Source: Planococcus sp. PAMC 21323
GTDB taxonomy: Bacteria; Bacillota; Bacilli; Bacillales_A; Planococcaceae
Direction of reading: 5' to 3'
Assembly: GCF_000785555.1 (NCBI RefSeq)
Contig: NZ_CP009129.1
Span: 1,426,001-1,490,000, forward strand
Length of the DNA: 64,000 nt
The stretch's first letter is position 1. Every line of letters starts with the position of its first letter. The position numbers and the translations under genes are program-made. The notes beneath the pieces were generated by a model that had not been told where the DNA came from, made no database searches, and worked only from the letters and a program-made list of their open reading frames with translations. Of the stretch, positions 27,788 to 57,147 are shown piece after piece.

Positions 27788-27826
27788 ATGCTGCTGGTTA
27801 GTTCGTAAAGGTTTCAAGACAATGGT

Positions 27827-27870
27827 GAACGTTCGTAAAATGAAATGATACATTTACGAACGTTCTTTTT
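27827..27870 (+). terminator. Intrinsic terminator of LysR gene; family-3-like repeat arms
   Basis: GAACGTTCGTAAA pairs perfectly with TTTACGAACGTTC around a 13-nt loop, followed by TTTTT. The arms contain the same GTTCGTAAA/TTTACGAAC word as the family-3 repeat found elsewhere in the window. Confidence 0.82.
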
Positions 27871-27894
27871 GGGGTTTTATGCTGATTCTATAGT

Positions 27895-27928
27895 GTTCGT
27901 AAAGGTGTACTTTTACGAACGGTTTTCT
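27895..27928 (+). repeat. Family-3 repeat, copy 1
   Basis: GTTCGTAAA - GGTGTACT - TTTACGAAC, then GGTTTTCT. Copies with the same right-hand half (ACTTTTACGAACG) are at 41951, 46045, 47363 and 50386. An in-frame GTTCGTAAA also lies at 27801. Confidence 0.75.
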
Positions 27929-28020
27929 CTGTAAAATTAGCTAGCTTTTACATCTTTCCATTGGTATATTAAGGAAATAAAGAAAAAGAACTATTCGGTG
28001 TGAAATCAGGAGGAGTTATT

Positions 28021-28857: not shown

Positions 28858-28878
28858 GACTGCAGTTTGCTTAGATTT

Positions 28879-28910
28879 GAATGTAACTTATGTGCAGTTA
28901 AGTTATATTC
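28879..28910. repeat. Family-1 palindromic repeat, copy A
   Basis: GAATGTAACTTA pairs with TAAGTTATATTC (one G-U) around an 8-nt loop. It lies in the gap upstream of the DUF4279 gene. Confidence 0.85.
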
Positions 28911-28962
28911 GCAGATAGAAAGAGTGGGTTTATTTTGCTGCTTGTACAAAGGGGGAGATTGT

Positions 28963-29388
28963 ATGGATGTTACAAAAGTGATGGCTTACTTCAGCATAGT
29001 TGGTAACCACTTCCAACCTGAGAAAATAACTGAAGAACTCGCCATTCAACCAACTGAAACGCATGTCAAAGGAGATATTATCAAGAAAACCAGTACTACT
29101 ACTTCATCTGGAACCAGAAGATGGGTAGAGACCGACTGGACATTGAGTACAGGATATCAAGAATCACCTGACATCAATGATCAACTCAAACCACTTTTGC
29201 GTTCGCTTGAAGGAAAAGAGAAAAACTTAATCCGGCTGAAAGAAGAATATGAATTAACGTATATTTTTATGATTGTCATCGAAATAGAAAATAATGAAAA
29301 ACCTGCTATGTATTTTGAAAAAGACATTATCAATTTTGCTAGTACCATAGATGCTGAGATACAATTTGATCTTTACATATACAGCTAA
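28963..29388 (+). CDS. DUF4279 domain protein (possible immunity protein)
   Basis: The frame extends upstream, but ATG 28963 is chosen because GGGGGAG lies just before it and because the upstream extension runs over the family-1 palindrome. The protein is 141 residues. The YFSIVGNHFQPEKITEELAIQPTETHVKGD opening, then TSSGTRRWVETDWTLSTGY, is diagnostic of DUF4279. Many DUF4279 genes lie near polymorphic toxins and are suspected immunity proteins; a direct partner is not seen beside this gene. Palindromic repeats flank it on both sides. Confidence 0.8.
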   Translation: MDVTKVMAYFSIVGNHFQPEKITEELAIQPTETHVKGDIIKKTSTTTSSGTRRWVETDWTLSTGYQESPDINDQLKPLLRSLEGKEKNLIRLKEEYELTYIFMIVIEIENNEKPAMYFEKDIINFASTIDAEIQFDLYIYS

Positions 29389-29403
29389 AGGTTTATGTGT
29401 TTT

Positions 29404-29435
29404 GAATGTAACTTAATGTGAATTAAGTTACATTC
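29404..29435. repeat. Family-1 palindromic repeat, copy B
   Basis: Perfect 14-bp arms GAATGTAACTTAAT / ATTAAGTTACATTC around the 4-nt loop GTGA, starting 16 bp past the DUF4279 stop. Confidence 0.92.
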
Positions 29436-29493
29436 ACATCACTAAACAAGGCGGTGCTAGAACGAATAAGCATAGATTAGGGGGGTAGTGGTT

Positions 29494-29748
29494 ATGGAAG
29501 AATATATACTTGTAAAAAGTATCATTGATGAGTGGGATCCGATTGGTTTATTAGGTCTTGGATGCCCAGATGACGAATATCTTCCTGAAATCAGAGACAT
29601 TGTAGCGCTCTTGCCTCATGCGAAATCGGTTGATGAACTTGCATTAAGAATCCGGCAAGTTTTTATAAAATGGTTTGAGGAATTTTTATCAATCGAAAAG
29701 TGCTATCCGGTAGCTTTGAAAATATGGGAGGCTGCTAAAAAAACATAG
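29494..29748 (+). CDS. DUF1871-like small protein
   Basis: An 84-residue soluble protein from ATG 29494, with GGGGGGT before it. The opening EYILVKSIIDEWDPIGLLGLGCPDDEYLPEIRDIV and the helical middle (SVDELALRIRQVFIKWFEEF) resemble DUF1871, a family of 80-90-residue helical proteins in Bacilli. Function unknown. It is one of a run of short single genes each separated by a family-1 palindrome. Confidence 0.65.
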   Translation: MEEYILVKSIIDEWDPIGLLGLGCPDDEYLPEIRDIVALLPHAKSVDELALRIRQVFIKWFEEFLSIEKCYPVALKIWEAAKKT

Positions 29749-29768
29749 ATTTCTTTTTTAGGGGATCT

Positions 29769-29800
29769 GAATGTAACTTAATAGTAATTATGTTACATTC
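29769..29800. repeat. Family-1 palindromic repeat, copy C
   Basis: GAATGTAACTTAAT / ATTATGTTACATTC with one mismatch and the 4-nt loop AGTA. Confidence 0.88.
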
Positions 29801-29870
29801 AGTTTCGCATACTTATCAATCTAAAATTAATTGGCTTTTCAATTAGTTTTCTGAATTAAAGGAGTTCATT

Positions 29871-30119
29871 ATGTTTCAAAAGAAGAAAACAGCAAATCCA
29901 GTGAAACCGAAGATTTATGTCCCCATTTTATATACATTTTTTCTAATGGTCTCTCTCGTACGTTTAATTCACGATTTATATACCAATAAAGATGCAGGTC
30001 TAGTAAGTAATATTTTAATAGCTGTTCTATTCTTTTCACTATCGCTTTTCAGTTGGATTATTTTTAAAAAACATTCCACCTTATATCAAAATTCCTTACA
30101 TTCTAAGCATCTTAAGTAA
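29871..30119 (+). CDS. Small two-helix membrane protein, unknown
   Basis: An 82-residue protein with AAAGGAG before ATG 29871. A basic N-terminus (QKKKTANPVKPK) is followed by two hydrophobic helices (IYVPILYTFFLMVSLVRLI and VSNILIAVLFFSLSLFSWIIF) and a basic tail (KKHSTLYQNSLHSKHLK). No family recognised. It is bounded by family-1 palindromes at 29769 and 30138. Confidence 0.65.
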   Translation: MFQKKKTANPVKPKIYVPILYTFFLMVSLVRLIHDLYTNKDAGLVSNILIAVLFFSLSLFSWIIFKKHSTLYQNSLHSKHLK

Positions 30120-30137
30120 AGATGGTTTTGGCAAAAT

Positions 30138-30173
30138 CTGAATGTAACTTATGTCTATTTAAATTACATTCAG
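30138..30173. repeat. Family-1 palindromic repeat, copy D
   Basis: CTGAATGTAACTTA / TAAATTACATTCAG, 14-bp arms with one mismatch, starting 18 bp past the previous gene's stop. Confidence 0.88.
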
Positions 30174-30336: not shown

Positions 30337-30756
30337 ATGAATAAAGGGATACAAGATCAATTAAATAATCTTTGGGGAACGGTCATTACCGACGTACAAG
30401 TGGATCTGTTGAATGATAATCTTACCATTCAGCTGGAAATTCATGAAGATGGCCGTATTAATTTTCAAACGTTAAAGTTTATTGATGTTGCTGCTTTTTA
30501 CTACGTTAAAGACAATTTAGAAAATCGCTTTAATTTCTATGATCGAGAAAAAGTTTATTATTTGGAACTGACCACTATTGATCATGTAGAAAACAAAAAG
30601 TACGATTTCCAAATTAAATCTACTAGTGATAAGGAATGGAGCGCACAATATAATACTGACGCGAATATCGTTATCGAAATATGGGAATCGGTTTTATTTA
30701 TAGAAGCCAGAAGAATTCAATTAGGGGATCAGGTTTTCGAATTGAAAAAAATATAA
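30337..30756 (+). CDS. Unknown soluble protein, possibly YxiG-like immunity-type
   Basis: A 139-residue protein from ATG 30337 (MNKGIQDQLNNLWGTVITDVQVDLLNDNLTIQ...), with AAGGGAG upstream. The pattern LWGTVITDVQVDLL...LTIQLEI.EDGR is reminiscent of the YxiG-like proteins encoded after wapA in B. subtilis, which are thought to be orphan immunity proteins, but the match is weak and from memory. The rest is beta-rich and acidic. It ends before a family-2 repeat at 30837 and the terminator of the opposing MFS gene. Confidence 0.55.
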   Translation: MNKGIQDQLNNLWGTVITDVQVDLLNDNLTIQLEIHEDGRINFQTLKFIDVAAFYYVKDNLENRFNFYDREKVYYLELTTIDHVENKKYDFQIKSTSDKEWSAQYNTDANIVIEIWESVLFIEARRIQLGDQVFELKKI

Positions 30757-41950: not shown

Positions 41951-41978
41951 TGTCTGTAAATGTGTACTTTTACGAATG
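41951..41978 (+). repeat. Family-3 repeat, copy 2
   Basis: TGTCTGTAAATGTGTAC then TTTTACGAATG, matching the right half of the copy at 27895. Confidence 0.72.
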
Positions 41979-48041: not shown

Positions 48042-48173
48042 AAGAGAATGAATCGATTTTATTGCTACTCAATTTATAAAAATATCAAGAAAGTCTATCC
48101 TACGTTTCAATCAGATTCGAACCTGCTTATTTAAAGTTTGAGACCAATATAAGGTTAAGAAATTTGCCTTGGT

Positions 48174-48205
48174 GAATGTAACTTATGTGCAGTTTAGTTA
48201 CATTC
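48174..48205. repeat. Family-1 palindromic repeat, copy E
   Basis: GAATGTAACTTA / TTAGTTACATTC, 12-bp arms with one mismatch and an 8-nt loop, 28 bp before the lipoprotein start. Confidence 0.87.
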
Positions 48206-48233
48206 AAAATTATTTTATAAAAGGGGGGAAGAA

Positions 48234-48608
48234 ATGAAAAAGGTTGCTTTATTAACAATTCTATTGCTTTATTTAGGCGGTTGCAGTAATGGTGGAATCT
48301 ATGAATTCTCAGGGACTAGCGAAAATTGGGATGTTTTTTATGTGGTAGATGTTACGAACGATGATGAACAAAAAGTTACAGGATTTCTTGAGTATATTGG
48401 AGATGAACCAATTCCAGAAACAGTTGATTATGAAGTTAGAACCTTATTAACCAGAATGGGGAACACAGGAACAACATTAACAGACGGAAAAGCCGAAATT
48501 GGAAATGGTTGTGGAGGTTGCACAACTTTTCAAGAAGACGATGAGCTTGAAGCGGAAATTATGTGGGATAACCAGCAAGAAGAATTGATACTGACGACTA
48601 AAAAGTAG
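48234..48608 (+). CDS. Small lipoprotein, unknown
   Basis: A 124-residue protein with AAAAGGGGGGAAG before ATG 48234. A signal peptide ends in the lipobox YLGGC (Cys17). The mature part is acidic (SNGGIYEFSGTSENWDVFYVVDVTNDD) and ends with GNGCGGCTTFQEDDELEAEIMWDNQQEELILTTK, including a CGGC pair. The repeated SGTSENWDVFY...EVR pattern suggests an immunoglobulin-like or beta-sandwich fold, but no family is recognised. It should be on the outer side of the membrane. Family-1 palindromes flank it. Confidence 0.75.
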   Translation: MKKVALLTILLLYLGGCSNGGIYEFSGTSENWDVFYVVDVTNDDEQKVTGFLEYIGDEPIPETVDYEVRTLLTRMGNTGTTLTDGKAEIGNGCGGCTTFQEDDELEAEIMWDNQQEELILTTKK

Positions 48609-48642
48609 TTGTTGTTAGGTTTCAAAAATTTTGCGAACTTTA

Positions 48643-48680
48643 TCTGAATGTAACTTATTGTGAATTAAGTTACATTCAGA
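48643..48680. repeat. Family-1 palindromic repeat, copy F
   Basis: TCTGAATGTAACTTA / TAAGTTACATTCAGA, perfect 15-bp arms with an 8-nt centre, 35 bp past the lipoprotein stop. Confidence 0.92.
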
Positions 48681-48730
48681 TTCAGCGTTAGATACAACTT
48701 TTATTTAGTAAATTTAAAAGGAGGTTTACA

Positions 48731-48949
48731 TTGAAAAATCTCTCTGAGAAGTTAATTTATTATTTAATAACTTTTGTTATTTTCTTTTTACTTTTTAAAA
48801 TTTTTGCATGGATGGAAAATGCGTATATCCCTTTGAATACTCAAACTCAATTGATGTCTGGCATTATTATTCTTCCTGCAATTGTTATTCTTTCATTTGT
48901 TTTATCCGGTTTACTTTTTAAAAGTCTAAAAGAATCCAATGGAAAGTGA
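48731..48949 (+). CDS. Small two-helix membrane protein, unknown
   Basis: A 72-residue protein from TTG 48731, with AAAGGAGG before it. Two hydrophobic segments (YLITFVIFFLLFKIFAWM and LMSGIIILPAIVILSFVLSGLLF) and a basic end (SLKESNGK). Its TGA stop lies inside the left arm of palindrome G. No family recognised. Confidence 0.65.
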   Translation: MKNLSEKLIYYLITFVIFFLLFKIFAWMENAYIPLNTQTQLMSGIIILPAIVILSFVLSGLLFKSLKESNGK

Positions 48950-48980
48950 ATGTAACTTAATAGCAAGTAAGTTACATTCA
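48947..48980. repeat. Family-1 palindromic repeat, copy G
   Basis: TGAATGTAACTTA / TAAGTTACATTCA, perfect 13-bp arms. The left arm supplies the TGA stop of the preceding gene. Confidence 0.9.
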
Positions 48981-49072
48981 AATTTCTGGCTTATAAGAGC
49001 TCAAGAAAAATAAAATAACCTCATTTTCTTTTTCAGCTATACTAATATTTAGAAATAGAGGGGGTTATTGGG

Positions 49073-49222
49073 GTGGAGAAAACGTTAGCTATTTACATCG
49101 CTTTTGATGCAGCCATCGGATTCTTTTTCGGGGGAATTTGGGAGGCTATTGCGGCAATGGTCTTGATTTATATTGCGCTAAGAATTGATCATCTTATAAA
49201 AAAATTCGAATACAGAAGATAA
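49073..49222 (+). CDS. Small membrane protein, unknown
   Basis: A 49-residue protein from GTG 49073, with GAGGGGGT before it. MEKTLAIYIAFDAAIGFFFGGIWEAIAAMVLIYIALR gives two closely spaced membrane segments, followed by a basic tail (LIKKFEYRR). It is bounded by palindromes at 48947 and 49291. No family recognised. Confidence 0.6.
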   Translation: MEKTLAIYIAFDAAIGFFFGGIWEAIAAMVLIYIALRIDHLIKKFEYRR

Positions 49223-49290
49223 GCTTAATTAAAATAGTATACGCAAATTAAAGGTCGTGTTCGAAAAAAGAGCACGGTTCTTTATTGAAT

Positions 49291-49326
49291 CTGAATGCAA
49301 CATACGGGCAGTTGAGCGACATTTAG
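49291..49326. repeat. Family-1 repeat, decayed copy H
   Basis: CTGAATGCAACATACGGGCA then GTTGAGCGACATTTA: recognisable halves with several mismatches. It keeps the spacing between genes. Confidence 0.6.
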
Positions 49327-49361
49327 ATAGTCATTAAGGACAAGTAAAAAGGAGGATTTAC

Positions 49362-49616
49362 GTGAAAAATGGCTTTTAAAATTCGTTTAAATTATTTGTA
49401 TTTTTCTTTTGTTTAGGTGTTTTAGCTTTAATACTAGGTGTAAACGGGGAAGCAGTGGCTATATTTATTTCAAGACCTTTGGGTGCTGAATCATGGACAA
49501 CATCTGGAAGCATGATGAATGGATTTATATATATACCAACAGCTATTGGTGTTTTTTTCTTTGCACTAGCTATTGTTGTTTTCACAGTTTCTTATATAAA
49601 AGTGCAAGAGAAATGA
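49362..49616 (+). pseudogene. Small membrane protein broken by an early in-frame stop
   Basis: AAAAGGAGG precedes GTG 49362; the frame reads MKNGF, then TAA 49377-49379, then continues without stop as NSFKLFVFFFCLGVLALILGVNGE ... GFIYIPTAIGVFFFALAIVVFTVSYIKVQEK to TGA 49616. Two membrane segments lie in the second part. A single base change (AAA to TAA) would explain the break, and no good restart follows. Confidence 0.68.
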
Positions 49617-49719
49617 ATATATAATTCTTTCTAAGAACTCAATCTAATCTATTTTGAGAAGCTGTAAGGGAAAGACCTTGTTACGATAACTTTTTTATTT
49701 GAAGTAAAGAGTGTGAATC

Positions 49720-49753
49720 TGAATGTAACTTAATGGTAATTAAGTTACATTCA
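49720..49753. repeat. Family-1 palindromic repeat, copy I
   Basis: TGAATGTAACTTAAT / ATTAAGTTACATTCA, perfect 15-bp arms with the 4-nt loop GGTA. Confidence 0.92.
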
Positions 49754-49876: not shown

Positions 49877-50227
49877 ATGTTGTTCATGTTAATTGTAAAA
49901 GCTTCAAAAAACTCAGAATCCGGAAATTTCCCAGACGTAAATCTTATTGAAGCAATGAATAAGTACAATGAAAATCTGATTAATTCAGGAGTACGCATTA
50001 TGGCCAAAGGACTTAAACCAAGTTCAAATGGAATCCGAATTTCATATCTTAAGCCAGGAGAAAAACCAGTAGTTACAGAAGGTCCTTTTGAGGAAATTCA
50101 AGAATTGATTGCGGGATTCATTGTTATCGATGTAAAGTCTAGGGAGGAAGCAATTAAATGGGCTATGGAAATGCCTGATCCTCAAGGATATGGAGAAGGA
50201 CAAATTGAATTAAGGGAATTTTTTTAA
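49877..50227 (+). CDS. YCII-related domain protein
   Basis: A 116-residue protein; AGGAGGAGTATGT leads into ATG 49877. The N-terminus MLFMLIVKASKNSESGNFPDVNLIEAMNKYNENL, the G-ripe GLKPSSNGIRIS and the EGPFEEIQELIAGFIVIDVKSREEAIKWA stretch fit the YCII (DGPF) family of ferredoxin-like fold proteins. Functions range from haloperoxidase-like to accessory roles; none is known here. A hairpin terminator lies downstream at 50346. Confidence 0.85.
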   Translation: MLFMLIVKASKNSESGNFPDVNLIEAMNKYNENLINSGVRIMAKGLKPSSNGIRISYLKPGEKPVVTEGPFEEIQELIAGFIVIDVKSREEAIKWAMEMPDPQGYGEGQIELREFF

Positions 50228-50385: not shown

Positions 50386-50415
50386 TTGTTTGTATAGGTA
50401 TACTTTTACGAACGA
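50386..50415 (+). repeat. Family-3 repeat, copy 5
   Basis: TTGTTTGTATAGGTATACTT then TTACGAACGATTATAG. Confidence 0.75.
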
Positions 50416-52862: not shown

Positions 52863-53494
52863 AGTTCTTTCTATGAGTAGGGTGTGCGTTAATTGGAGTG
52901 CTAAAAGAAAAACAACATTTTGTAATGAAGTTAAAAAACTAGTTTATATGTAGCCTGTTTATCGGTAGCAAAGACGCTCCATAAGATAATTCTTTTTCTC
53001 TAAAAAAATATAAACATAAGTTAAAATATTTGCTATTCTTTCTTTTTTAAACTGTATACTCCTCAAATGGAACTTATGGTAAACTTTGTATGAATAGAAT
53101 TTTGAAATTTAGAAAAATTTCATAAGATAGGTGATTACATAGTAGATTAAGCATTTCGAATAATACGATCAGGGTCAGTGAGAGATGTTGCCGCTACTGA
53201 TTTTACTATTAAATAGTATTTTTTAGCGACTTAGGTCGCACAAATGAAATGGGCAAGAATATCTCAATATGAAAATTATATTGAATTTTTTACCAGGGAT
53301 TAAATTAGTAAGTTTTAAGGTTTGTATAGTTTCGATAAAAGAAATCACCTATTAGTAACTACTTTAATAAAAATGATTCCTTTTTTTATTCAAAGAAATT
53401 AGTACTATAACCAAGAGAAGTGCTTTTATCAGCTGATAAAAGTGGGAGGATACAAAAAAAGTATTTATCACTATTTATGGAGAGTGGGTCAAGT
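52863..53494. other. Gap upstream of the TPP enzyme gene
   Basis: Contains the family-2 copy h at 52941 and otherwise AT-rich sequence, with a short hairpin (GCGACTTAGGTCGC at 53226-53239). No gene or known riboswitch was recognised. Confidence 0.55.
52941..52968 (+). repeat. Family-2 repeat, copy h
   Basis: AGTTTATATG - TAGCCTG - TTTATCGGTAG, the most diverged copy but still in the same orientation. Confidence 0.65.
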
Positions 53495-55135
53495 ATGAAA
53501 GCAGTTCGTAATGTTTTAGAATTTTTAGAGGATAATGGCGTCAAGTATGTATTTGGAATACCAGCAGGTTCAGTCAATGCTTTTTATGACCAACTTTTGG
53601 ACTTTCCTGAGATTACACCAATTGTCACAAAACATGAAGGCGCTGCTTCTTATATGGCAGCATCGTATGCAAAATATTCTCAGCAGTTGAGTGTGTGTAT
53701 CGGTAGTAGTGGTCCTGGAGGCACTAATTTATTGACAGGGGCTGCGAATGCGATGCGGGAGCATTTGCCGATTTTGTTTCTTACCGGGGCAGTTCCGGTA
53801 AGTACGATGGGGCTGAATGCTTCTCAAGAATTGGATGCTCAGGCACTCTTTCAACCAATCACCAAGTATAGTGTTACGGTTTTGGATTCAGCGAATTTAT
53901 TGGATGAGATTGTAAAAGCGACACAAATTGCCCTTTCAGGTGTACCTGGCCCTGTCCATGTTGCGATGCCAATAGATGTTCAAATGGGGAATGTTGAAAA
54001 ACTTCCTATACCAAAGCTAGAAATAGAGCGTCATCCATCTATAGACCTTACATTAATCAAACAAGTAGCGGATCATTTGATGCAGAAGAAAAAGGGCTTT
54101 ATCTTCGCGGGACAGGGAGTACGTAATTCGGTAGCTCAAGTACTAGAACTTGCAGAATTGCTTAATTGGCCTATTGTTGCTACACCTGTGGCTAAAGGGT
54201 TATTCCGGGAAGACCATCCACTTTTTTCTGGCGTATTTGGTTTTGCCGGAAAAGACGATACGTCTTCATTAGTCAATGAGGGAGATGCAGAAACACTGCT
54301 TGTACTAGGATCAAGTCTAGGTGAAACAGCGACAAGCAATTACAATCCAAACCTGTCAAAAGACCGATTTGTCATTCAAGTTGACTTTGATGCTACCGTT
54401 TTTAACCGTAAGTATCCGGTTGATATTCCGATACATGGAGATATGTCAGAGGGTTTAACTAAATTAATTGAAGAACTTAAAGCAAGAGGTTTAGAGCGAC
54501 CGAAAACTATAAAAGCTATTAAACAAGAGTCACCCACTACTACTGAAGAAGAATTTAACACAAAAAATGTCTTGCGGAAGTTACAAGAATTCTTGCCATC
54601 TTCTACTCGCTATACCATTGATATCGGTGAGTTTATGGCTTATGTTATCCATGACATGGAAGTAATGGAGGAAGACACATTTGATATCAATGTCCATTTT
54701 GGTGCAATGGGAAGCGGACTAAGCGCAGCAATCGGTTCAAAGCTTGCTGACCCTAATCGACCTGTAGTTGCAATTACAGGAGATGGCTGTTTCTTTATGC
54801 ACGGTATGGAGATCTTAACGGCTAAAGAATATAATTTGCCAGTTTTGTTCGTGGTAATGAATAATGCGCGATTAGGTATGGTATACCAAGGGCATACGCT
54901 GCAATATAAGCGTTCACATCCTTCTTTTGAACAAGAACCAGTAAATATTGCAGCAATGGCTGAAGCATTAAATATTCCAAATTTTCGCGTAGATACTTTC
55001 GAGGACTTATCTCAAAATGTCTTAAATGCGTTGACCTATCTAAAGGGCCCGGCAATTTTAGAAGTCGCACTGGTCGATAACAATATTCCACCGATGGGAG
55101 ATAGAGTTAAGTTTCTTTCTTCTTTTGGGAAATAG
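53495..55135 (+). CDS. Thiamine-diphosphate enzyme of the pyruvate oxidase/acetolactate synthase type
   Basis: This protein of 546 residues has ATG 53495 as the probable start (MKAVRNVLEFLEDNGVKYVFGIPAGSVNAFYDQ); GGAGAGTGGGTC lies upstream. It has three domains: the Pyr domain with the catalytic Glu in THEGAASYMAASYAK, a central Rossmann-like domain (GFIFAGQGVRNSV), and the PP domain with the ThDP motif GDG(25-30)N (TGDGCFFMHGMEILTAKEYNLPVLFVVMNNAR). The family decarboxylates pyruvate and either oxidises, or condenses it. FAD dependence and product cannot be settled; a ligand-free comparison with PoxB and AlsS would be needed. It is monocistronic; palindrome J lies 107 bp downstream. Confidence 0.88.
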   Translation: MKAVRNVLEFLEDNGVKYVFGIPAGSVNAFYDQLLDFPEITPIVTKHEGAASYMAASYAKYSQQLSVCIGSSGPGGTNLLTGAANAMREHLPILFLTGAVPVSTMGLNASQELDAQALFQPITKYSVTVLDSANLLDEIVKATQIALSGVPGPVHVAMPIDVQMGNVEKLPIPKLEIERHPSIDLTLIKQVADHLMQKKKGFIFAGQGVRNSVAQVLELAELLNWPIVATPVAKGLFREDHPLFSGVFGFAGKDDTSSLVNEGDAETLLVLGSSLGETATSNYNPNLSKDRFVIQVDFDATVFNRKYPVDIPIHGDMSEGLTKLIEELKARGLERPKTIKAIKQESPTTTEEEFNTKNVLRKLQEFLPSSTRYTIDIGEFMAYVIHDMEVMEEDTFDINVHFGAMGSGLSAAIGSKLADPNRPVVAITGDGCFFMHGMEILTAKEYNLPVLFVVMNNARLGMVYQGHTLQYKRSHPSFEQEPVNIAAMAEALNIPNFRVDTFEDLSQNVLNALTYLKGPAILEVALVDNNIPPMGDRVKFLSSFGK

Positions 55136-55523
55136 AGTATAAGTTGTTATAAGTGAACGGATCATCAAATGATGAATGTTTTTTAAAAAAGAACGCATAT
55201 AGGCTTTGGTGTATAGAAGGAAATCTTATTTGTGTAATGAATTTGAATAGAACTTAATGTGGATTAAGTTCTATTCAAATCTTTGGAAATAAGTATTTTG
55301 TATCAACAATCTTCATCATTCAATGGTTGGAATCTTTTTAGCAATTCTACGTGAACCGAGTTCTTTTTTCACTATATTAATCCTAATTATTGCTGGTTAG
55401 TGATTACTAGAAATGCGATTTGCGTTTTTTACGAAAGGATGACTAACGAGAGGCTACGCTAAACAAAATCAACTTTAAATTTTTTCATTCCCTAAATAAG
55501 CTCAACATAATAAGCCTGTTCTT
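55136..55523. other. Gap between convergent TPP-enzyme and MFS genes
   Basis: Contains palindrome J (55242-55279). No gene seen. Confidence 0.6.
55242..55279. repeat. Family-1 palindrome variant, copy J
   Basis: TTTGAATAGAACTTAAT / ATTAAGTTCTATTCAAA, perfect 17-bp arms with loop GTGG. Relative to the other copies, GT is changed to AG in the left arm and AC to CT in the right, so both arms changed together and pairing is kept. Confidence 0.85.
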
Positions 55524-56759
55524 TTACCTATTTTTATTAATAAGTCTAGGCAATGTTTCACTTAACCGGAAAGTTGCGATTAGTCCAGCACTCAGTGGCA
55601 AAATGGCGACTAAACCGATAGCCCAATCTACATTGAGTAAATCTGTTAGTAAACCAGCAAATATTGCACCAAAGGCATATCCACTATCTCTCCAAAAACG
55701 ATAAACCCCCATTGAAGAAGCTCTCCAAGACGGATCTGCGATATCGCTTATTGAAGCTTGCAAGGTTGGATAAACCATGGCAGTTCCAACCCCTAATAGG
55801 ACTGCTGCAATAATCCACAGATGATACTCACCAACTAGAAGAATTAACCACAGTGAAATGGCTTGTAACCACATGCCACCAACAATCAATTTCTTCCTAC
55901 CTATTTTATCGCTAAGAACACCTGTGAAAAGTTGAAAAAATCCCCACGAAGCCAGATAAATAGCAACCAACAATCCAATTTGCGATAAGGTCAGTCCGAC
56001 ACTCGCAAAAAATATTGGAAACAGTCCCCAAGCCATACCATCTTTCAAGTTGGTGCTCAGCCCTGAAAAGGTAAGGATGGATAAATTTTTATTTTTATAA
56101 GTCGTATTTTTAAAGACATCCGCTGCTGAAAAGATCGAATTTTCAGTAGCAGTACTGGCCTGTAATTTAATATGAGACTGTGTATCTTTTACGATTAGAG
56201 ACAATGCAAATCCAATTATGACAATGACAATTCCGATGTAGAAAGGTTCTGGTCGATTCGAATAACTTGAGGCGACAAAGCCCGAAACAGCTGCCATCGT
56301 AGCCACTCCGGTATAGCCTGCAAATTCGTTAAACCCAACAGCAAATCCTCTTTGAGTAGGTTTCGCTAAATCAATTTTCATATTTACAGTCATAGACCAC
56401 GTGAGTCCTTGGTTAATACCTAAGAAAATATTTGCCACGACAATCATCCACCATGCGCTTGCGAAGATCACCAGTACAGGAACTAATAAGCCCACACTCC
56501 AACCAACGAGTAAGATCTTTTTTCTTCCAAACCGATCGGCGATAGTTCCTGCGAAATAGTTTACAATAGCTTTTGAGAATCCAAAACTAATGATAAAAGA
56601 CAAGGCTGCGCTAGTTGAGACTAACCCGAAATCTTTTTCACCGATAATTGGGAGGATGGTTCTTTCCAAGCCAACCATAGATCCCACAAAAAAATTTGTT
56701 ACAACTAAAAGGATGAAGTTTAGTAAATTTTCCTTTATACCAATTTTTACAGTTTTCAT
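55524..56759 (-). CDS. MFS transporter
   Basis: This 411-residue protein has about twelve membrane helices. The MFS signature GTIADRFGRKKILLVGW follows TM2, and a second copy GVLSDKIGRKKLIVGGM lies between TM8 and TM9. A central hydrophilic loop (about 190-215) separates the two halves. ATG 56757-56759 is the start since AAAGGTGGAC precedes it. Substrate unknown; a drug or metabolite exporter is plausible. It is convergent to the TPP-enzyme gene. Confidence 0.88.
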   Translation of the reverse strand: MKTVKIGIKENLLNFILLVVTNFFVGSMVGLERTILPIIGEKDFGLVSTSAALSFIISFGFSKAIVNYFAGTIADRFGRKKILLVGWSVGLLVPVLVIFASAWWMIVVANIFLGINQGLTWSMTVNMKIDLAKPTQRGFAVGFNEFAGYTGVATMAAVSGFVASSYSNRPEPFYIGIVIVIIGFALSLIVKDTQSHIKLQASTATENSIFSAADVFKNTTYKNKNLSILTFSGLSTNLKDGMAWGLFPIFFASVGLTLSQIGLLVAIYLASWGFFQLFTGVLSDKIGRKKLIVGGMWLQAISLWLILLVGEYHLWIIAAVLLGVGTAMVYPTLQASISDIADPSWRASSMGVYRFWRDSGYAFGAIFAGLLTDLLNVDWAIGLVAILPLSAGLIATFRLSETLPRLINKNR

Positions 56760-57147
56760 AAAGTCCACCTTTACCAATAGGTTTTTCTAGGGTTGTTTTC
56801 TTTGATCATTTTTTAGTATTAGTTATTTAGATGAGTATTGAGTTATTCATTTGTACAAAATAGAGTCGATTAGCAGCACTGAGGCTATTACAGATTTTTA
56901 AAGAAATACGTTGCCTAGGCACTTTCAATATTCAAATGCTTGTACTCATAAAAATTTGAATAATACTTAAATTATCCGCGAAGCGAACAGTGCCAGTTTT
57001 ATTAAAATACACTAGAGAATTTAACTATAAAATAAGAATTTTCTTTTCACAACATGAATACTTATTTATCACCGTTTTAGAATAGAAAGTTAGGACATTC
57101 GAAATTACTGCATTTGCCTATTTAAATTCTTGAAAAGAGGGATTAAC
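56760..57147. other. Gap, no gene seen
   Basis: AT-rich sequence upstream of the divergent MFS gene and a small gene at 57148. No repeats or clear promoter. Confidence 0.5.

Follow-up and report, generated by a model that had tools for sequence, protein, structure and literature searches.

Integrons and the dif modules of Acinetobacter are the main systems in which mobile one-gene cassettes are known. Excerpts of PMC8618304 describe integrons and CALIN as arrays of one-gene cassettes, mostly of unknown function, with inverted-repeat sites and a tyrosine recombinase. The dif modules (pdif, XerC/XerD) are exchanged at equal centres by joining and resolving (PMC13141974, excerpts), and in laboratory cassette exchange of the Cre/lox type, sites with unlike centres recombine poorly (PMC4777119, excerpts). 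Here we analyse a window of 64,000 nucleotides from Planococcus sp. PAMC 21323 (NZ_CP009129.1, positions 1,426,001 to 1,490,000), which belongs to a Gram-positive genus of soil and sea with arrays of related design at several chromosomal places and on plasmids. Sequence comparison suggests that these arrays are probably an integron-like cassette system, in which recombination sites bound mobile one-gene cassettes, a plasmid recombinase is the likely enzyme, and the solitary site J is a variant of the same family. Mobile cassettes and an ordered central hexamer are its main features, and they go beyond the initial annotation of this DNA, which dealt with J as a covarying hairpin. A search of the open-access literature returned no description of such Planococcus arrays.

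The resemblance to each of the described systems is partial. Like integrons and CALIN as covered in the same excerpts, Planococcus has arrays of one-gene cassettes with short inverted-repeat sites and a tyrosine recombinase, and it has chromosomal arrays that lack the enzyme (PMC8618304). Unlike IntI, the Planococcus recombinase scores only 32.3 bits on the integron integrase model TIGR02249 (cut-off 265), and unlike integrons its sites have symmetric arms, with centres that form an ordered set. Small plasmid modules with 6-bp-centred sites between them recall the dif modules (PMC13141974, excerpts); unlike these, the Planococcus sites have their own recombinase beside them, both arms alike and one orientation, and there are many chromosomal arrays with a fixed centre order in a Gram-positive host. 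With Cre/lox and Dre/rox the sites share a 13-8-13 layout and an asymmetric centre, but the Planococcus arrays are natural and carry many centres in a fixed order, and the 187-aa enzyme is almost only a catalytic domain.

Probable recombination sites and their cassettes

Copies of the family read TGAATGTAACTTA-N8-TAAGTTACATTCA, with two inverted 13-bp arms around an 8-bp centre, which is the layout of a tyrosine-recombinase site; lox arms are likewise 13 bp, and the lox-like combination of two inverted arms with an asymmetric centre of 6–8 bp is present in these sites. We read the arms as probable targets to which two copies of a single tyrosine recombinase bind, and the inner 6 bp of the centre as the likely crossover. 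When arm positions 6–7 were left open and up to 3 mismatches were allowed, the family pattern found 9 sites in the window, J among them with 0 mismatches, and none in 100 dinucleotide shuffles of the window. With up to 3 mismatches allowed, the present genome has 36 sites, against 4 for the reversed pattern as control; with up to 2 allowed it has 35, against 0. At the stricter threshold, sites occur in 45–46 of the 46 Planococcus genomes, and a scan of 261 genomes of the family found them in 46, one of which lies outside the genus. Hosts among the matches listed in the pattern scan are Planococcus, Planomicrobium and one Gracilibacillus.

Apart from J, the window sites form two arrays (28878–30172 and 48173–49753), with all array sites in one orientation and with successive sites enclosing single small ORFs. 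Array A, on the + strand throughout, begins with site 1 (28878–28911, centre TGTGCAGT), followed by a DUF4279 protein gene (28963–29388; Pfam PF14106, E 1.5e-30), site 2 (29403–29436, centre ATGTGAAT), a DUF1871 protein gene (29494–29748; PF08958, E 2.7e-9), site 3 (29768–29801, centre ATAGTAAT), a gene for a small protein that has no Pfam match (29871–30119) and site 4 (30139–30172, centre TGTCTATT). A YxiG-like gene lies past the last site (30337–30756, +; PF24711, E 1.5e-39). Array B, also on the + strand, opens with the same centre, TGTGCAGT, in site 1 (48173–48206), and continues with a 124-aa ORF, a lipoprotein by sequence reading (48234–48608), site 2 (48645–48678, centre TTGTGAAT), a gene for a 72-aa protein (48731–48949), site 3 (48947–48980, centre ATAGCAAG) and a 49-aa ORF (49073–49222). 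The 72-aa gene runs into site 3 and uses the first TGA there (48947–48949) as its stop codon. Further along are a decayed site (49292–49325, +; hexamer GGGCAG, with 3 and 4 mismatches in its 14-base arms) and the last site of the array (49720–49753, +, centre ATGGTAAT), past which lies a YCII-related gene (49877–50227, +; PF03795, E 9.3e-13). Between these two sites, the ORF at 49362–49616 seems broken, with a GTG at 49362, a stop after five codons and a restart at 49455.

Named cassette genes encode DUF4279, DUF1871, SMI1/KNR4 and DUF7878 proteins. SMI1/KNR4 proteins are often immunity proteins; defence models gave no matches to nine ORFs of the window. The present genome has further arrays near 1.04, 1.33, 1.55 and 1.75 Mb. 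All of its arrays lie within about 0.5 Mb of a dif-like site at 1.53 Mb (C1:1.04–1.75 Mb).

Central hexamers and cassette movement

For the wider comparison, 435 sites with distinct surroundings were kept from 215 loci, with only repeated contexts removed; many of the loci are fragmentary, and several share a genome or stem from related genomes, so that the counts are not independent. The inner 6 bp of these sites are a small discrete set and not a continuum: GTGCAG was found in 101 sites, TGTGAA in 90, TAGCAA in 66, TCCTAA in 21 and TGGTAA in 18, followed by a tail. Within arrays the centres run in the order GTGCAG, TGTGAA, TAGCAA and then varied. We kept 167 arrays, 123 of them with at least two sites, which gave 288 adjacent pairs. 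GTGCAG starts 85 of the 123 arrays (pooled-shuffle mean 28), and steps from GTGCAG to TGTGAA and from TGTGAA to TAGCAA account for 73 and 46 of the 288 pairs (pooled-shuffle means 15 and 10). Reversed steps were seen once (mean 35) and neighbours with equal centres twice (mean 38). To our knowledge, neither integrons nor dif modules have a fixed order of site centres.

Upstream of array A a conserved block spans 27801–27930 (+) and carries the palindrome GTTCGTAAAGGTGTACTTTTACGAAC at 27895–27920; the same block precedes first sites in other places too. A palindromic motif other than the cassette site, GTTCGTAAANGTGTACTTTTACGAAC, lies in the conserved block upstream of arrays and occurs in the window at 27801–27930, 41952–41977 and 50388–50413. 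There are 77 copies of this motif in total, 49 of which are distinct and have a cassette site within 2.5 kb downstream, and in 44 of these 49 the next centre is GTGCAG. Conversely, the motif precedes 27 of the 60 first sites that have 1.8 kb of upstream sequence. The block with this motif is also present on plasmids pNM8 and pA26H3, and it is perhaps the left edge of the cassette system.

Cassettes themselves recur in unrelated surroundings. We compared 279 inter-site stretches and scored homology as at least 80% of length at 75% identity or more, which yielded 136 homologous cassette pairs, up to 100% identical; in 106 of the 136, the 200-bp flanks differ on both sides. Among the close pairs printed, the majority stay homologous up to a few bases from the arms. 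The mobile unit is one ORF with one site, its edges at the arms, which is how a cassette is recognised in integrons. A cassette of P. wigleyi and one of Gracilibacillus (loci L120 and L061) are 97% identical, and the DUF1871 cassette of array A has copies about 90% identical in other arrays. Array B opens with a cassette that shares 97% identity with a cassette of P. halocryophilus (L099); here the left flank is homologous too, and homology stops at the end of site 2.

Both centres are shared in 17 of 40 homologous cassette pairs at 95% identity or more, in 20 of 52 at 85–95% and in 9 of 46 at 70–85%, compared with 9% for random cassettes, while 52 of the 136 homologous pairs share neither. 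Close pairs keep both centres more often, so position tends to persist, yet cassettes change centres over time. Strict centre matching leaves these 52 pairs unexplained unless leakage or conversion occurs.

A recombinase on small plasmids

The likely enzyme is a 187-aa tyrosine recombinase of small Planococcus plasmids, which would cut these sites. Sites and cassettes are found on three small circular contigs (L069, L115 and L117), whose ends overlap by 77 bp in each case, and past the last site each contig has a tyrosine recombinase of 187 to 230 aa; in L069 and L117 a MerR-like gene adjoins site 1. The recombinase is a PF00589 member (E 2.7e-21), and residues R47, K71, H135, R138, H161 and Y170, which we take from their roles in the family to be catalytic, are conserved in 55 of 55 homologues. 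Named plasmids with the recombinase include pNM8, pNM11, pA26H3 and pPS15-2, and on pNM8 and pNM11 a single site lies 237–238 bp upstream of it. Among 35 distinct recombinases of at least 85% identity, 21 have 1.5 kb of upstream sequence and 5 have 1.5 kb downstream. All 21 have a site within 1.5 kb upstream (18 of them within 700 bp), and none of the 5 has one within 700 bp downstream.

Homologues at E ≤1e-15 were found in 20 of the 46 genomes of the genus, two of them only 35–38% identical. At the same threshold the present genome has none, and its four PF00589 matches are tyrosine recombinases of which none is at an array. Having sites but lacking the enzyme, the present genome therefore probably meets it when a plasmid enters. 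Arrays of plasmid and chromosome would then join at equal centres and resolve at another shared centre, which would swap the genes in between with order kept; differing centres of neighbouring sites would protect cassettes from excision. More tentatively, with a chance that we put slightly below even, this would be a third kind of bacterial gene-cassette system, a natural cassette exchange with unlike sites, in which the central hexamer is an address and a plasmid recombinase swaps genes like-for-like between plasmid and chromosome at position 1, 2, 3 and onwards, keeping order and changing content. If order is an address, the arrays would show how gene exchange can go on in a cell while its array is neither lost nor scrambled, and they would supply a ready-made collection of natural, mutually unlike recombination sites together with a very small enzyme.

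Host XerC/XerD might act on the sites instead, as on the dif modules of Acinetobacter. A 6-bp centre with 11-bp arms is compatible with a Xer layout, and the single-gene modules of the small plasmids are similar to those of the dif type (PMC13141974, excerpts). In the sole dif-like site found in the genome (ACTTCCGATAATTTATATTATGTAAACT, C1:1532611), the two arms differ from each other and from those of the family, whereas the family arms are symmetric and alike, so that the distinct XerC and XerD arms resembling host dif that characterise dif modules are not seen here. Nor does orientation alternate, as it would in dif modules: it is the same in 390 cases, opposite in 10 and undecided in 11. 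Given, in addition, a dedicated recombinase beside the sites, we consider action of the host enzymes very unlikely and retain the plasmid recombinase as the candidate.

Recombinases that have diverged further were compared with the sequences upstream of them. Of 20 entries below 85% identity, five have matching diverged palindromes upstream, such as the changed-arm TGAATGTACGATA-ATATAAAT-TATCGTACATTCA; their owners, at 50–67% identity, are in another Planococcus genome, Peribacillus and Solibacillus. Palindromes of this kind appeared in 2 of 400 shuffled upstream sequences. Two more entries have a palindrome of doubtful kinship more than 550 bp away, and in the remaining 13 no palindrome of at least 12/13 was found in 600 bp upstream. 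None of 261 genomes of the order matched the diverged site pattern of the Peribacillus type. Similar enzymes are the short tyrosine recombinases of Bacillales and Enterococcus plasmids, with homologues 46–61% identical on many plasmids, some with an upstream palindrome; unlike in Planococcus, no cassette arrays surround the diverged plasmid recombinases among those read. The ancestral role of these enzymes was perhaps plasmid dimer resolution. On the 81-kb plasmid pFN9D of Lysinibacillus capsici (L212), seven places match the recombinase, and in a 20-kb stretch a recombinase unit and site lie between repeated copies of the cfr and lsa(B) resistance genes. In L212 and in a second locus, L214, near-perfect palindromes with TATA centres, e.g. 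CAGGTTACTAGTA-TATA-TACTAGTAACCTG, stand in a row 360–500 bp before the recombinase.

Arm symmetry and the solitary site J

J (55241–55280, +) is a solitary site outside any array and without a cassette, and both of its arms are symmetrically changed. It lies between alsS (acetolactate synthase; 53420–55135), whose stop codon is 105 bp before the start of J, and a gene for an MFS transporter (55524–56777), both named from their translations; the two genes are convergent. Its letters are ATTTGAATAGAACTTAAT-GTGG-ATTAAGTTCTATTCAAAT, in which 18 paired bases flank a 4-nt centre with 100% complementarity, one pair more than the 17 given by the initial annotation, which had rightly called it a perfect inverted repeat. 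Comparison with other copies also bears out the compensated change that had been reported from GT to AG: AG replaces GT at positions 6–7 of the left arm, and the matching CT replaces AC in the right. The primary sequence had been said to differ from all other copies, and the J arms indeed occur exactly once among 46 Planococcus genomes, in the present one. Each change was also seen on its own, with A/A at position 6 in 4 further sites and G/G at position 7 in one further site; two symmetric changes in one site were found in 4 sites among the 435, J included.

The covariation test that had been proposed for the family was run as a shuffle. Arm changes over the 435 sites comprise 39 symmetric cells, 314 with a change in one arm only and 3 in which both arms change without matching, and 2000 shuffles of the right arm gave a mean of 11.0 symmetric cells and a maximum of 21. 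With 102 arm genotypes each counted once and position 1 omitted, there were 19 symmetric cells against 4.7, a value reached in 0 of 5000 shuffles; the shuffles ignore kinship, and shared descent is still inside these counts. Other symmetric variants thus exist, and J is not the sole covarying copy. The initial reading thus held only in part. The paired changes bear out its covariation, but the ranking of structure and an AACTTAA core above the outer sequence fails, since the outer arm is as conserved as AACTTA: both arms have the consensus in 412, 428, 425 and 421 of 435 sites at positions 2–5, and in 429, 421, 411, 368, 418 and 418 at positions 8–13.

Covariation of this sort is not specific to a hairpin; a site bound by a pair of identical proteins, or template-switch repair inside a palindrome, gives an equal pattern. 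Quasi-palindrome correction is a known mutational process, and symmetric changes such as those of J could stem from mutation and not selection if template switching copied one arm onto the other, which would suit the perfect match of both arms in J and other sites. At position 11, however, one arm is changed in 66 sites and both symmetrically in none, with 47 changes in the upstream arm against 13 in the downstream arm, so arm copying is not general, and we regard this origin as rather doubtful. The asymmetry at position 11 may be a mark of strand-exchange order.

Sites that act as folded single-stranded hairpins, like integron attC, with the strand used set by replication direction, would likewise account for symmetric arm changes above chance. 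RNA folding is strong for J and for two array sites (z −5.6 to −9.2), and the arrays show the sort of orientation bias that folding of one strand, on the lagging template, would produce: in ten genomes with a chromosome-like main contig, 35 of the 36 first sites are directed away from coordinate 1 to the middle, 2 of the 35 being near the midpoint. This count leaves out four sites on small contigs of genomes G011 and G045; G025 has none. Reading this direction as origin to terminus is backed in the present genome by the dif-like site (position 1532611 of 3199864), while in the others the origin is assumed, and four first sites on contig 2 of G011 point the opposite way if the origin is at coordinate 1. 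Genes that simply run along with replication may also explain the bias. In attC, conserved unpaired bases mark the strand, but the family arms are perfectly complementary (13/13) in 223 of 435 sites and have no conserved unpaired bases, and an ordered asymmetric centre is typical of double-strand crossover systems. Folded single strands are thus an unlikely substrate.

As intergenic palindromes with strong predicted hairpins, and with J between convergent genes, the repeats could also be taken for RNA hairpins, terminators or other 3′-end structures spread by copying. J lacks a T run, no terminator-like site was found at 55100–55560, and a terminator needs neither an ordered asymmetric centre nor base-exact cassette boundaries. 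Rfam matches were far below threshold, among them mir-3479 over site 3 of array A (31.7 bits, gathering score 79). We rejected RNA hairpins and terminators on these grounds, and a role of this kind appears extremely improbable. A conserved 3′ element of alsS was excluded as well: the alsS stretch was found in 19 genomes, and J is absent from the equivalent place in 18 of the 18 other alsS loci. Many relatives have hairpins of unrelated sequence behind alsS, with J not among them. Nor was J supported as the site of a diverged recombinase, as its AG arms were absent from every palindrome printed for the 56 distinct recombinase entries. Judged by its letters and its place, J may be a stray site, a retired site or a site with shifted specificity. 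Its centre, TGTGGA, is similar to the second-position centre of the arrays (TGTGAA).
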